A DNA stretch of 64,000 nucleotides. It comes from Streptomyces sp. P9-A4. GTDB taxonomy: Bacteria; Actinomycetota; Actinomycetes; Streptomycetales; Streptomycetaceae. Of the stretch, positions 5,026 through 16,385 are shown one piece after another; position 1 is the first letter of the stretch, and each line of letters starts with the position of its first letter. The position numbers and the translations under genes were made by a program. The stretch covers positions 2,862,501 to 2,926,500 of the forward strand of contig NZ_JAZIFY010000001.1 of NCBI RefSeq assembly GCF_036634195.1. The letters are read 5' to 3'. The notes below the pieces were generated by a model that was not told the DNA's origin, made no database searches, and worked only from the letters and a program-made list of their open reading frames with translations.

Positions 5026-5123
5026 CGGGGGGCGGGGGCAGGCACCTCCGGCCCCGGCCGGTCCGGACCCGGATCCCGCCCGTCGGGTAGCGCCCCGTCC
5101 CCGCCCCGGTTTGCATGGGAACC

Positions 5124-5603
5124 ATGACTGGAACCGCTACCGGCACCACCTCCGTCGTCGTCGAGCGCCGGGTCGCCGCCTCCCCCGGGCGGGTCTGGGA
5201 GTCGATCACCGACCTGCCGGAGATGCCCCGCGTCCTCTCGGGCGTCGAGAAGGTCGAGGTCCTCACCGAGGGCGGCTTCGGGGTGGGCACGCGCTGGCGC
5301 GAGACCCGGCGGATGCTGGGCAAGGAGGCCACGGAGGAGATGACCGTGACCGAGTCCGAGCCGCCCGACCGGTACGTCACGGTCGCCGACTCGCACGGCA
5401 TGCGCTACGTCTCCGAGCTGACCCTCACGCCGGACGGGACCGGGGCCACCACCCTGCGGATGACCTTCTCCGCCACGCCCTCCGCCGGCCGCACCCCCGG
5501 CGTCCTCGGCCGGCTGATGGCCCGCTTCGGCGCGAAGGCCGTGGCCAGGGCGCTCGCCAAGGACCTGTCCGAGATCGCCCGGGCGGTGGAGTCCCGGAGC
5601 TGA
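5124..5603 (+). CDS. SRPBCC (START-like) family protein
   Basis: A 159-residue protein of the polyketide cyclase/START-like helix-grip fold, which binds hydrophobic ligands. VVVERRVAASPGRVWESITDLPEMPRVLSG is the typical first strand and following helix, followed by antiparallel strands and a long C-terminal helix (LGRLMARFGAKAVARALAKDL). No catalytic residues are evident and no signal peptide is seen, so it is probably cytosolic. ATG 5124 is chosen; ATG 5115 is also in frame. Its last eight codons and stop are copied imperfectly in the DNA just downstream. Confidence 0.75.
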   Translation: MTGTATGTTSVVVERRVAASPGRVWESITDLPEMPRVLSGVEKVEVLTEGGFGVGTRWRETRRMLGKEATEEMTVTESEPPDRYVTVADSHGMRYVSELTLTPDGTGATTLRMTFSATPSAGRTPGVLGRLMARFGAKAVARALAKDLSEIARAVESRS

Positions 5604-5779: not shown

Positions 5780-6172
5780 GTGCCCGGAATCGACGAGTGC
5801 CTGACGGAGGCCATGACCCTGCCGGGTGCCCGCGGTGCCTCCCTGGTCGACTGGACCAGCGGACTCGCCCTCGGGACGGCGGGCGAATCCCCCGTCGGGG
5901 ACCATGAGACGACGGCCGCGGAGACCGCCGAACTCGCCCGGTCCGCCGCCGAGTTCGACTCCTTCGTCGCCGAGGGCGAGACCCCCTCCGCCGGGCCGCC
6001 CGTCGAGGACCTGATCGTCACCACCCGGGCCGGCTACCACGTGCTCCGCTTCGTCGAGACCTCCTTCGACAGCAGCGTCTTCCTGCACCTCTGGCTCGAC
6101 CGCGACACCGGCAACCTCGCCCTCGCCCGCATCCGGCTCCGCGACATCGCCGAGAGGCTGGTCCTCGGATGA
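5780..6172 (+). CDS. Roadblock/LC7-like protein, first gene of signalling operon
   Basis: A 130-residue protein starting at GTG 5780 behind a GAGAGGA site. It is clearly paralogous to the last gene of the operon (7409-7780): both carry GA-(S/A)-LVD-(W/Y)-TSG-(L/M)-ALGT near residue 20 and end with a strand-helix segment containing NLALAR or NLAMAR. Predicted alternation of helices and strands fits a Roadblock fold, which usually forms dimers that bind small GTPases or scaffold proteins. Its stop overlaps the next ATG (ATGA). The precise role is unknown. Confidence 0.7.
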   Translation: MPGIDECLTEAMTLPGARGASLVDWTSGLALGTAGESPVGDHETTAAETAELARSAAEFDSFVAEGETPSAGPPVEDLIVTTRAGYHVLRFVETSFDSSVFLHLWLDRDTGNLALARIRLRDIAERLVLG

Positions 6173-6936
6173 GCGCGGTCGCCACCCCCGTCTCCCCCAT
6201 GCTGGTCCGGCTCGCCGCCGAGAAGGCCACCGGCGCGCTGCTCCGCGACCACGGCACGCTCTATCTCGTCGACGGCCGGGTGGTGCACGCCGAGAGCCCG
6301 GCGTCCCCCGGTGTCGACGTGCTCCTGACCACCGGCGGCCGGTTGCCCCGCGAGGGCTGGGACGAGGCCGTCGACCGGGCCGGGGCGCACCGCGCGGTCG
6401 GCCGGTTCCTCGTCGACAGCGGCCGGCTGCACGACGGCGAGCTGGAGATCTGCCACCTCGGGGCCGTCTTCGACGCCGCCTTCTTCGCGCTCTCCCCCAC
6501 CAGCGGACCGACCCGCTTCCGGTACGGGGTGGGGCACTGGTTCGGCACGGTGCGGCCGGTGTCCGCCGAGGCCGTCGAGCGCGAGACGGTACGCCGCCGC
6601 GAACTCCTCGACGCCGTCTGGCCGTACGCCGCCGTGGACACCGCCCCGGTCGTGCCGCGCCCCGCCGCCCCCGGGCAGACGGTGGGGGCCCGCCAGCGCG
6701 CCCTGCTCGCCGCCGCCGACGGGGAGCGCACCCCGGCGGAGCTGGCCCGGCTGCTCGGCCGGCCCGCCTTCCACACCCTCCTCGACGTACGGCGGCTGGC
6801 CGCCGCCGGGCTCGTCGAGACCCCGCTCGACACCGGCCCCGAGCCCTCGCCGGCCCTCTTACCGGTTCTGCCGGTGGCCGACCCCGACATCGCCCTGCTG
6901 CGCCGGCTCCGTGACGCCCTGGAGGCACACCTGTGA
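6169..6936 (+). CDS. PATAN/DUF4388-like protein with C-terminal winged-helix-like region; contains a TTA codon
   Basis: A 255-residue protein. Residues 1-120 resemble PATAN/DUF4388 scaffold domains (LAAEKATGALLRDHGTLYLVDGRVVHAES, then a small alpha-helical region with VGRFLVDSGRL). Residues about 170-215 (RQRALLAAADGERTPAELA...TLLDVRRLAAAGLVET) look like a winged helix. Codon 231, at 6859-6861, is TTA (Leu). This is the only in-frame TTA I find among the genes of the window, so full translation should need the bldA tRNA. It lies late in the reading frame, after the putative winged helix. Start is coupled to the preceding gene by ATGA. Confidence 0.65.
   Translation: MSAVATPVSPMLVRLAAEKATGALLRDHGTLYLVDGRVVHAESPASPGVDVLLTTGGRLPREGWDEAVDRAGAHRAVGRFLVDSGRLHDGELEICHLGAVFDAAFFALSPTSGPTRFRYGVGHWFGTVRPVSAEAVERETVRRRELLDAVWPYAAVDTAPVVPRPAAPGQTVGARQRALLAAADGERTPAELARLLGRPAFHTLLDVRRLAAAGLVETPLDTGPEPSPALLPVLPVADPDIALLRRLRDALEAHL
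6859..6861 (+). promoter_or_regulatory. in-frame TTA (UUA) leucine codon, bldA-dependent translation point
   Basis: TTA is codon 231 of the 6169-6936 gene, in the run GCC CTC TTA CCG GTT. In Streptomyces, UUA is read only by the bldA tRNA, which matures late in growth. Translation of this gene, and possibly of the two genes after it through polarity, may therefore be developmentally timed. Confidence 0.8.
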
Positions 6937-6977
6937 TGAGGCGTGCCCTGCGCCTGCGCGCCGAAAGGAAACAGCTC

Positions 6978-7379
6978 ATGACGGCAGAAGCCGAGGTACT
7001 CGGCGAGCTCAGACGGCTGCGGGCCCGGCTGCCCCAGCTGACCGGGGCGCTCGCGGCCAGCGCCGACGGACTCGTCCTGGCCCACGACACCGTGGACGGC
7101 GAGGCGGAGAGCGTGGCCGCGCTGACGGCCGCCGCGCTGGGCGTCGGGCAGCGGCTGACCGACTGCACGGGCCAGGGCCGCTTCCGTGAGCTGCTCGTAC
7201 GGGGGGACAGCGGTTACGTCGCCACGTACGCGGCGGGCGGCTCGGCCGTCCTGACGCTGCTGGCGGAGCCCCGGATCAATGTGGGCCGGCTCCATCTGGA
7301 GGCCCGGAGGTCCAGCGTCCGGATAGGCGAACTCGTCGACGGCGCGCTGGAACGCAAAGACCTGAACCGAACCGGCTAG
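6978..7379 (+). CDS. Roadblock/LC7 domain protein (MglB-like)
   Basis: A 133-residue protein. VLGELRRLRARLPQLTGALAASADGLVLA is a classical Roadblock start, followed by the helix with AALTAAALGVGQRLTD, strands with GYVATYAAGGSAVLTLL, and a C-terminal helix. Family members act as dimeric regulators of small Ras-like GTPases or as sensor scaffolds. ATG 6978 is chosen because GAAAGGAA sits 8 bases before it; in-frame ATGs at 6933 and 6936 overlap the end of the previous gene. No GTPase gene is next to it, unlike the conservon (cvn) operons. Confidence 0.8.
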   Translation: MTAEAEVLGELRRLRARLPQLTGALAASADGLVLAHDTVDGEAESVAALTAAALGVGQRLTDCTGQGRFRELLVRGDSGYVATYAAGGSAVLTLLAEPRINVGRLHLEARRSSVRIGELVDGALERKDLNRTG

Positions 7380-7408
7380 GAAATCGATCCCGTAAAGGAA
7401 GTACGACC

Positions 7409-7780
7409 ATGGCGAACACCGAGACCTCCCTCAAGGAAGCTGCCTCCATCGACGGCGCGATCGGCGCGGCCCTCGTCGACTACACGAGCGGCATGGCGCT
7501 CGGCACGATCGGCGGCGGCAAGGAGCTCGACCTGAACGTCGCCGCGGCCGGCAACACCGACGTCGTCCGGGCCAAGGTCCGGGCGATGGAACTGCTCGGC
7601 CTCAACGACGAGATCGAGGACATCCTGATCACCCTCGGCGGCCAGTACCACCTGATCCGGCTGCTCAAGGGGCGCGGCACCAACGGCCTGTTCCTCTACC
7701 TGGCCCTGTCGAAGGACCGCGCCAACCTGGCGATGGCCCGCCACCAGCTCAAGAAGATCGAATCCGAACTGGAGCTGTGA
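7409..7780 (+). CDS. Roadblock/LC7-like protein, last gene of signalling operon
   Basis: A 123-residue paralogue of the 5780-6172 product, with GAALVDYTSGMALGT near residue 20, EDILITLGGQYHLIRLL in the middle and KDRANLAMARHQLKKIESELEL at the end. It starts at ATG 7409 after AAAGGAAG. It follows the classical Roadblock gene by 29 bases and is the last gene before a bidirectional terminator. No catalytic motif is seen; a protein-protein adaptor is the likeliest role. Confidence 0.7.
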   Translation: MANTETSLKEAASIDGAIGAALVDYTSGMALGTIGGGKELDLNVAAAGNTDVVRAKVRAMELLGLNDEIEDILITLGGQYHLIRLLKGRGTNGLFLYLALSKDRANLAMARHQLKKIESELEL

Positions 7781-16300: not shown

Positions 16301-16385
16301 TGGTGCCCGGAACCGGACTCGAACCGGTACGGCCCGAAGGCCAGCGAGGTTTAAGCTCGCCGTGTCTGCGTTCCACCATCCGGGC
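16301..16385 (-). tRNA. bldA: tRNA-Leu, anticodon UAA (bldA)
   Basis: An 85-nt class II tRNA with encoded CCA. Acceptor GCCCGGA (16385-16379) pairs with TCCGGGC. The anticodon stem GCGAG/CTCGC encloses the loop CTTAAAC, placing anticodon TAA over 16351-16353. The long variable arm is GGCC-TTCG-GGCC, and the T arm is ACCGG-TTCGAGT-CCGGT. In Streptomyces the only tRNA for UUA codons is bldA, whose loss blocks aerial growth and antibiotic production. It lies minus strand between a hydrolase-like gene and an ABC exporter operon. Confidence 0.95.

Follow-up and report, generated by a model that had tools for sequence, protein, structure and literature searches.

Genes that contain a TTA codon have long been established as targets of bldA. 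The question raised by this locus is whether one such codon, in a gene encoding a DUF4388/PATAN-like protein, places a small operon of Roadblock-type genes under bldA control and, if so, which of the gene products would be timed by it. The reading that we favour, and hold to be fairly probable, is that three genes of the operon (designated hereafter as RB1, PAT and RB2) form a unit under a selectively favoured bldA/UUA checkpoint, which may be carried by any one of them.

In-frame TTA codons in the window

The window, that is, the whole stretch of 64,000 nucleotides of Streptomyces sp. P9-A4 DNA analysed here, contains at positions 6859–6861 of the forward strand a TTA that is in frame as codon 231 of the 255 codons of PAT (6169–6936, +). 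When each TTA and TAA in the window was compared with 56 called coding sequences (17,910 codons), no second in-frame TTA emerged, which confirms an initial description of this codon as the only one of its kind in the window; the 56 coding sequences are our own calls based on GC frame rather than a curated annotation, and AT-rich genes could have been missed. At the frequency that neighbour genes show in the relatives (8 TTA per 204,085 codons), about 0.7 TTA codons are expected in the window, and about 1.1 from the published proportion of approximately 2% of genes with TTA (PMC11836424). With about one expected anyway, the solitary status of the codon was rejected as an argument against chance, and the statistical weight therefore rests on homologues. 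PAT is presumably translated, judging by the conservation of its reading frame across the genus, and would thus share with bldA-dependent genes an in-frame TTA in a translated gene.

Gene order and protein families of the operon

PAT is the second of four genes, all on the forward strand, in the order RB1-PAT-RB2-RB3. RB1 (5780–6172, +), which has a GTG start, encodes a small Roadblock-like protein of 130 amino acids with weak similarity to LAMTOR5 and Robl_LC7 below the cut-offs (12.6 bits for PF03259 against a cut-off of 23). RB2 (6978–7379, +), encoding 133 amino acids from the ATG at 6978, is a Roadblock/LC7 protein by its match to PF03259 (E 2.1e-17; 63.1 bits against the same cut-off), and its matches in the PDB were Robl_LC7, cvnB5 and MglB. 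RB3 (7409–7780, +; 123 amino acids) had no match to PF03259 or to any other Pfam family and no convincing relative in the PDB by sequence; it is a paralogue of RB1 (approximately 35% identity), and in its structure model (pLDDT 90) the element order H-EE-HH-EEE-H resembles that of the Roadblock fold.

The assignment of PAT is kept at 'DUF4388/PATAN-like' because its match to PF14332 (E 0.0015; 19 bits against a cut-off of 25) lies below the cut-off, as does a match to HTH_20 (E 0.034), and helices at residues 174–212 or so weakly match the helix-turn-helix family. Among the 120 PAT homologues listed, one (P0095) bears the PF14332 label; in the source records the homologues are mostly annotated as transcriptional regulators. 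The nearest named relative by this protein is Streptomyces sp. Root1304 (98%), and no PDB relative was found by sequence at E values up to 1. The structure model of PAT is weak (mean pLDDT 66) and was used to locate the linker only; codon 231 lies between the helices at about 174–212 and a C-terminal helix (residues 239–253), in a stretch of low confidence (222–243) at that helix. Directly upstream of RB1 is an SRPBCC/polyketide-cyclase-like gene (5115–5603, +), which in the stretches read was present in few relatives, and there usually farther off.

TTA codons in relatives of the operon

A PAT match was found in 256 of 295 genomes drawn from the genus. The loci used were 30 from this draw and the stretches around 119 further listed matches, to which a second collection contributed 63 named loci; removal of duplicates left 192 distinct loci, 187 of them with hits for all four genes, including one fragment (L093). 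The named loci were chosen by similarity to the window and hence lean to its clade, and the genus draw alone still under-samples the most distant homologues. Because the sequences are related, p-values based on counts overstate independence. Wherever the surrounding stretch was read, the gene order was conserved, and RpiR and decarboxylase genes often lay close by.

Carriers of TTA in this set amounted to 47/192 for RB1, 64/192 for PAT, 35/187 for RB2 and 0/189 for RB3, and at least one of RB1, PAT and RB2 contained the codon in 116 of the 187 Streptomyces operons. When only the genus draw was considered, the counts were 37/143, 42/143, 35/141 and 0/142, respectively, with at least one TTA in 89 of 141 operons. 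TTA was absent from the flanking RpiR (0/118), decarboxylase (0/83) and CBS (0/16) genes, and 6 of 609 neighbouring genes in the relatives had one. As a control for the protein class, 40 other Robl_LC7 loci of five genomes were examined, in which TTA occurred in 7 of 182 genes and in none of the 40 Roadblock genes; the 114 of 427 genes with TTA here differ from this at p 1e-12, a value to which the caveat on relatedness applies.

Several counts go against the checkpoint. No TTA in RB1, PAT or RB2 was found in 71 of the 187 operons, which include a large clade as well as those of S. gardneri and S. narbonensis, both near the window. Of the 116 carriers, 27 have TTA in two or three genes, so that there is no clear mutual exclusion; a rule of strict compensation, with exactly one TTA per operon, is not supported, given these and the TTA-free operons. 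The exemption of RB3, complete in Streptomyces, was broken at 1 of 29 loci of other genera of the family. RB1, PAT or RB2 had a TTA at 13 of 30 loci of these genera (PAT was unreadable in two and RB2 was not found in one).

Turnover of TTA sites

In a codon alignment, TTA occupied 43 columns, 22 in RB1, 18 in PAT and three in RB2. When gains were counted by parsimony on a four-gene tree, RB1, PAT and RB2 required 35, 24 and 8 at equal costs and 28, 22 and 8 at a gain:loss cost of 4:1, a range of 58–67 overall. The same codon is kept within clades only, and other codons are used elsewhere: codon 231 of PAT is TTA in 16 of the 24 members of the window's own clade (one of them the fragment L093), where the neighbouring residues vary, codon 247 of PAT in 20 of 21 members of another clade, and codon 14–17 of RB2 in 26 of 28 members of another. 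Strains that have the TTA in PAT include relatives of S. zaomyceticus or S. exfoliatus. The first-pass annotation had taken absence of the TTA from homologues as evidence against bldA control. Retention holds for most of the window's clade; beyond it the site is not kept, and six of the eight non-carriers within it are without TTA in all three genes, so that the objection applies in part.

These six, which count against the checkpoint, now read CTA, GTA, TTC and, in three cases, CTG at the site. Altogether 13 lineages have lost the usual TTA of their clade; seven of them have another in the operon and six, all in the window's clade, do not. One of the seven (L036) has its TTA in the adjacent column, which may reflect a shift in the alignment, and the clades for this analysis were chosen as having at least 60% carriers, one of them being weakly supported (0.47).

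Many gains fall in a variable loop of RB1 and in the PAT linker. In the RB1 loop, the limits of which were set after the columns were seen, 25 of 75 leucine codons are TTA, none of them in the window. By position, the last tenth of the gene holds 8 of 24 gains in PAT, whereas all eight in RB2 lie within the first quarter; in RB1 the middle half accounts for 23 of 35. With gains spread over the ends and middles of genes, a 3'-end rule for TTA was rejected, and the suggestion that a TTA near the 3' end signals strong dependence found no support. One leucine that never varies in RB2 (alignment column 30, codon 14–17) is encoded by TTA in 31 of 187 operons and by TTG in 32, and another genus (L254–L257) also has TTA at codon 14. 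Two readings fit: an ancient TTA with many subsequent losses, or a site at which TTA is gained repeatedly.

TTA compared with other rare codons

The main rival to selection for a bldA checkpoint is relaxed codon usage, by which weakly expressed, fast-evolving signalling genes would tolerate the rarest codons and TTA would have no regulatory role. Judged against GC3-matched neighbour genes, TTA in RB1, PAT and RB2 was observed 155 times where 8.6 were expected (18-fold). At the level of the operon, TTA is kept in orthologues beyond background (89 of 141 in the genus draw). CTA, although one mutation nearer to the common CTG and CTC, reached 1.2-fold (55 observed, 47 expected), and the median of A/T-ending codons was 1.1-fold. 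TTA was the strongest outlier among all synonymous codons, and its excess held for PAT and RB2 whatever the GC3 bin, and for RB1 in all bins except a small one of five genes. In favour of relaxed usage, and against the checkpoint, ATA (Ile) and AGA (Arg) were also enriched, at 5.1-fold and 2.9-fold; relaxed usage would also suit the many gains in the variable loop and linker and the 71 operons that manage without TTA.

Counting distinct columns, the ratio of TTA to CTA was 41:29 in RB1, PAT and RB2 and 0:17 in RB3 and the flanking genes (Fisher p 4e-6; p 0.007 against RB3 alone), and at the conserved leucine of PAT codon 247, TTA in nearly all of one clade, the column of 187 rows holds one TTG and no CTA. 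Both results are difficult to reconcile with general tolerance of rare codons. Persistence after gain was less discriminating. Tips held per gain were more numerous for TTA than for CTA (p 0.03 over all sites and 0.06 over conserved ones), and TTA was retained longer than a pool of nine codons (p 0.016 and 0.03, respectively); against pooled ATA, AGA and CTA the difference was not significant (p 0.21 at all sites, 0.19 at conserved sites). Longer retention than other rare codons thus fails as an argument, and this result, too, goes to relaxed usage. Weighing the specificity of the excess for TTA against these points, we regard relaxed usage as unlikely, while taking it seriously. The excess of ATA and AGA is an observation in its own right, as other rare tRNAs may matter too.

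A special sequence context of TTA was also considered and rejected. In the operon genes of the Streptomyces loci, the next base is C after 92% of TTA, 89% of GTA, 86% of CTA and 44% of ATA codons, a general xTA context that perhaps reflects avoidance of TAG/CTAG and is not specific to TTA.

Translation starts and polarity

According to the initial proposal, the TTA of PAT sets the timing of PAT and, through polarity, that of all the Roadblock proteins made downstream; we now consider this improbable. The gene order is tight, and the ATG of PAT overlaps the stop codon of RB1 (ATGA), an overlap of exactly four bases in 116 of 187 operons, which makes it likely that RB1 and PAT are translationally coupled. 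A start codon at most 10 nt from the PAT stop and open into RB2 was present in 119 of 187 operons; in the window, RB2 could start by coupling at an in-frame GTG (6933) or ATG (6936), both of which overlap the stop codon of PAT. In S. coelicolor, moreover, UUA in polycistronic messages cuts downstream products in a bldA mutant, as for SCO6638-6637 and SCO0381-0401 (PMC2000904). Against a polar effect on everything downstream, RB2 and RB3 have Shine-Dalgarno-like motifs of their own in 171 and 184 of 187 operons (PAT in 50), represented in the window by the putative ribosome sites AAAGGA at 6964–6969 (+) and 7394–7399 (+), and they start at a median distance from the previous stop of 41 and 68 nt, respectively. 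In one clade many members have TTA in RB2 alone, which would leave RB1 and PAT untimed, and the absence of TTA from RB3 in all 189 Streptomyces loci suggests that RB3 lies outside the timed unit. A polarity effect of the TTA is accordingly possible for RB2 and less likely for RB3.

Two further readings are very improbable: horizontal transfer from a donor of lower GC content, which is regarded as among the origins of Streptomyces TTA genes (PMC10327506), and a role of the TTA in a DNA or RNA motif rather than as a codon. PAT has a GC3 of 0.96 in the window and occurs widely in the genus draw, the gene order is conserved in the loci read, and TTA stands at 43 different columns, for which the sole shared context, a C as the next base, accompanies GTA and CTA almost as often.

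The bldA gene in the window

ARAGORN identified a tRNA-Leu gene with anticodon TAA, that is, bldA, at 16301–16385 on the reverse strand, 9.4 kb from the TTA of PAT and within the window. The genome thus has a tRNA-Leu(UAA) gene, and among its 67 tRNA matches none of the nine other tRNA genes of similar length reads UUA. This gene, together with the recurrence of TTA above the matched background, supports the link between the operon and bldA that was drawn at first from the single codon. A match to the bldA stretch approximately 9–10 kb from the operon was also found in four further genomes (G025, G249, G268 and G270); in three others (G054, G269 and G199) the operon lies 2.3–2.8 Mb from the match and PAT still has its TTA. 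In these genomes bldA was scored as a DNA match to 185 bp of the window, and not by individual anticodons. Linkage to bldA as a necessary mechanism was rejected on the basis of the three distant cases.

A model for bldA control of the operon

The tRNA encoded by bldA accumulates late (PMC11836424). If so in this strain, ribosomes translating the operon early in growth would be held up at UUA codons, and one or more of the RB1, PAT and RB2 proteins would be made late. Were the three proteins to act jointly, a UUA in any one of their genes would be enough, and this would allow the codon to wander among the variable loop of RB1, the linker and C-terminal helix of PAT and the N-terminal end of RB2. 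RB3, which has a ribosome site to itself, would stay exempt. For the PAT of the window, stalling at codon 231 would mean loss of the linker and the conserved C-terminal helix. The position of the codon, its recurrence in relatives, the specificity for TTA, the exemption of RB3 in Streptomyces and the presence of bldA were observed directly, whereas selection as the cause, joint function of the three proteins, timing and any effect on RB2 are inferred. The model draws on the TTA counts in relatives, the 18-fold excess, the 41:29 ratio of columns and the 58–67 gains, to which we add the TTA-rich loop of RB1, the 7 of 13 lineages with another TTA in the operon, the control for the protein class, the bldA gene in the window and published precedents.

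A bolder version of this model is conceivable, if on balance doubtful: selection would act on the operon and not on the site, most lineages keeping a UUA somewhere in RB1-PAT-RB2 and disordered landing pads (the RB1 loop and PAT linker) allowing it to be re-created once lost, with RB3 kept free of UUA so that this protein is already there when development begins. In that case, bldA would change the make-up of a Roadblock complex, from one with only RB3 to one with RB1, RB2 and RB3 together with PAT.

Comparison with known TTA-containing genes and conservons

No description of the RB1-PAT-RB2-RB3 operon was found in the open-licence literature searched on the operon and TTA. To the TTA genes already known as bldA targets it would add a TTA kept at the level of an operon with turnover of the site. 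In the analysis of Chater and Chandra 2013, adpA stands alone in having TTA in every streptomycete examined (PMC4255298). This master regulator (bldH) has a single UUA between the coding segments of its two domains (PMC4255298), and the codon in the window likewise lies in a linker, before the C-terminal helix of PAT; whereas the TTA of adpA is universal in the streptomycetes analysed, here both presence and place shift between clades and genes. The operon behaves like certain clusters of Table 2 of that review, for example SCO0381-0383 and SCO0683-0685, which were included as one or another gene often has TTA (PMC4255298). Table 2 names no Roadblock or DUF4388 gene, a comparison by names in which an S. 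coelicolor orthologue could be among the entries without function, and neither site turnover nor a TTA-free fourth gene is described in the review's sections on TTA genes (PMC4255298). As here, SCO6638-6637 and SCO0381-0401 have a UUA in the upstream gene of a probable polycistronic message; there the loss in a bldA mutant was measured, whereas the present operon is known from its sequence (PMC2000904).

In a study of 213 species, most Streptomyces TTA codons were poorly conserved; for 18 orthogroups, half or more of the species had a TTA, and 11 TTA sites were conserved, one of them in a DUF742 protein (PMC10327506). Poor conservation reads as flux, but the operon suggests that regulation may be kept while the codon moves between subunits. 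If true, surveys made site by site would undercount bldA targets, and counts of TTA at the operon level would find more. Close relatives with and without TTA offer natural experiments.

The conservons cvnABCD encode a kinase-like protein, a Roadblock protein, a DUF742 protein and a GTPase. None of the seven genes between 3,667 and 8,638 of the window shows the GTPase (CvnD) or kinase-like (CvnA) family, so that the locus does not qualify as a conservon. Both systems are based on Roadblock signalling, and conservons often have TTA in one partner, as in cvnC13 (PMC4255298, Table 2) and a DUF742 protein (PMC10327506). Here, unlike in conservons, the Roadblock genes themselves bear TTA, against 0 of 40 in the other Roadblock loci. 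All seven TTA genes found near those 40 Roadblock genes (loci L288, L313 and L319–L323) encode short neighbours of 85–125 amino acids, which are probably cvnC/DUF742; in conservons it thus seems to be the partner, rather than the Roadblock protein, that carries the TTA.
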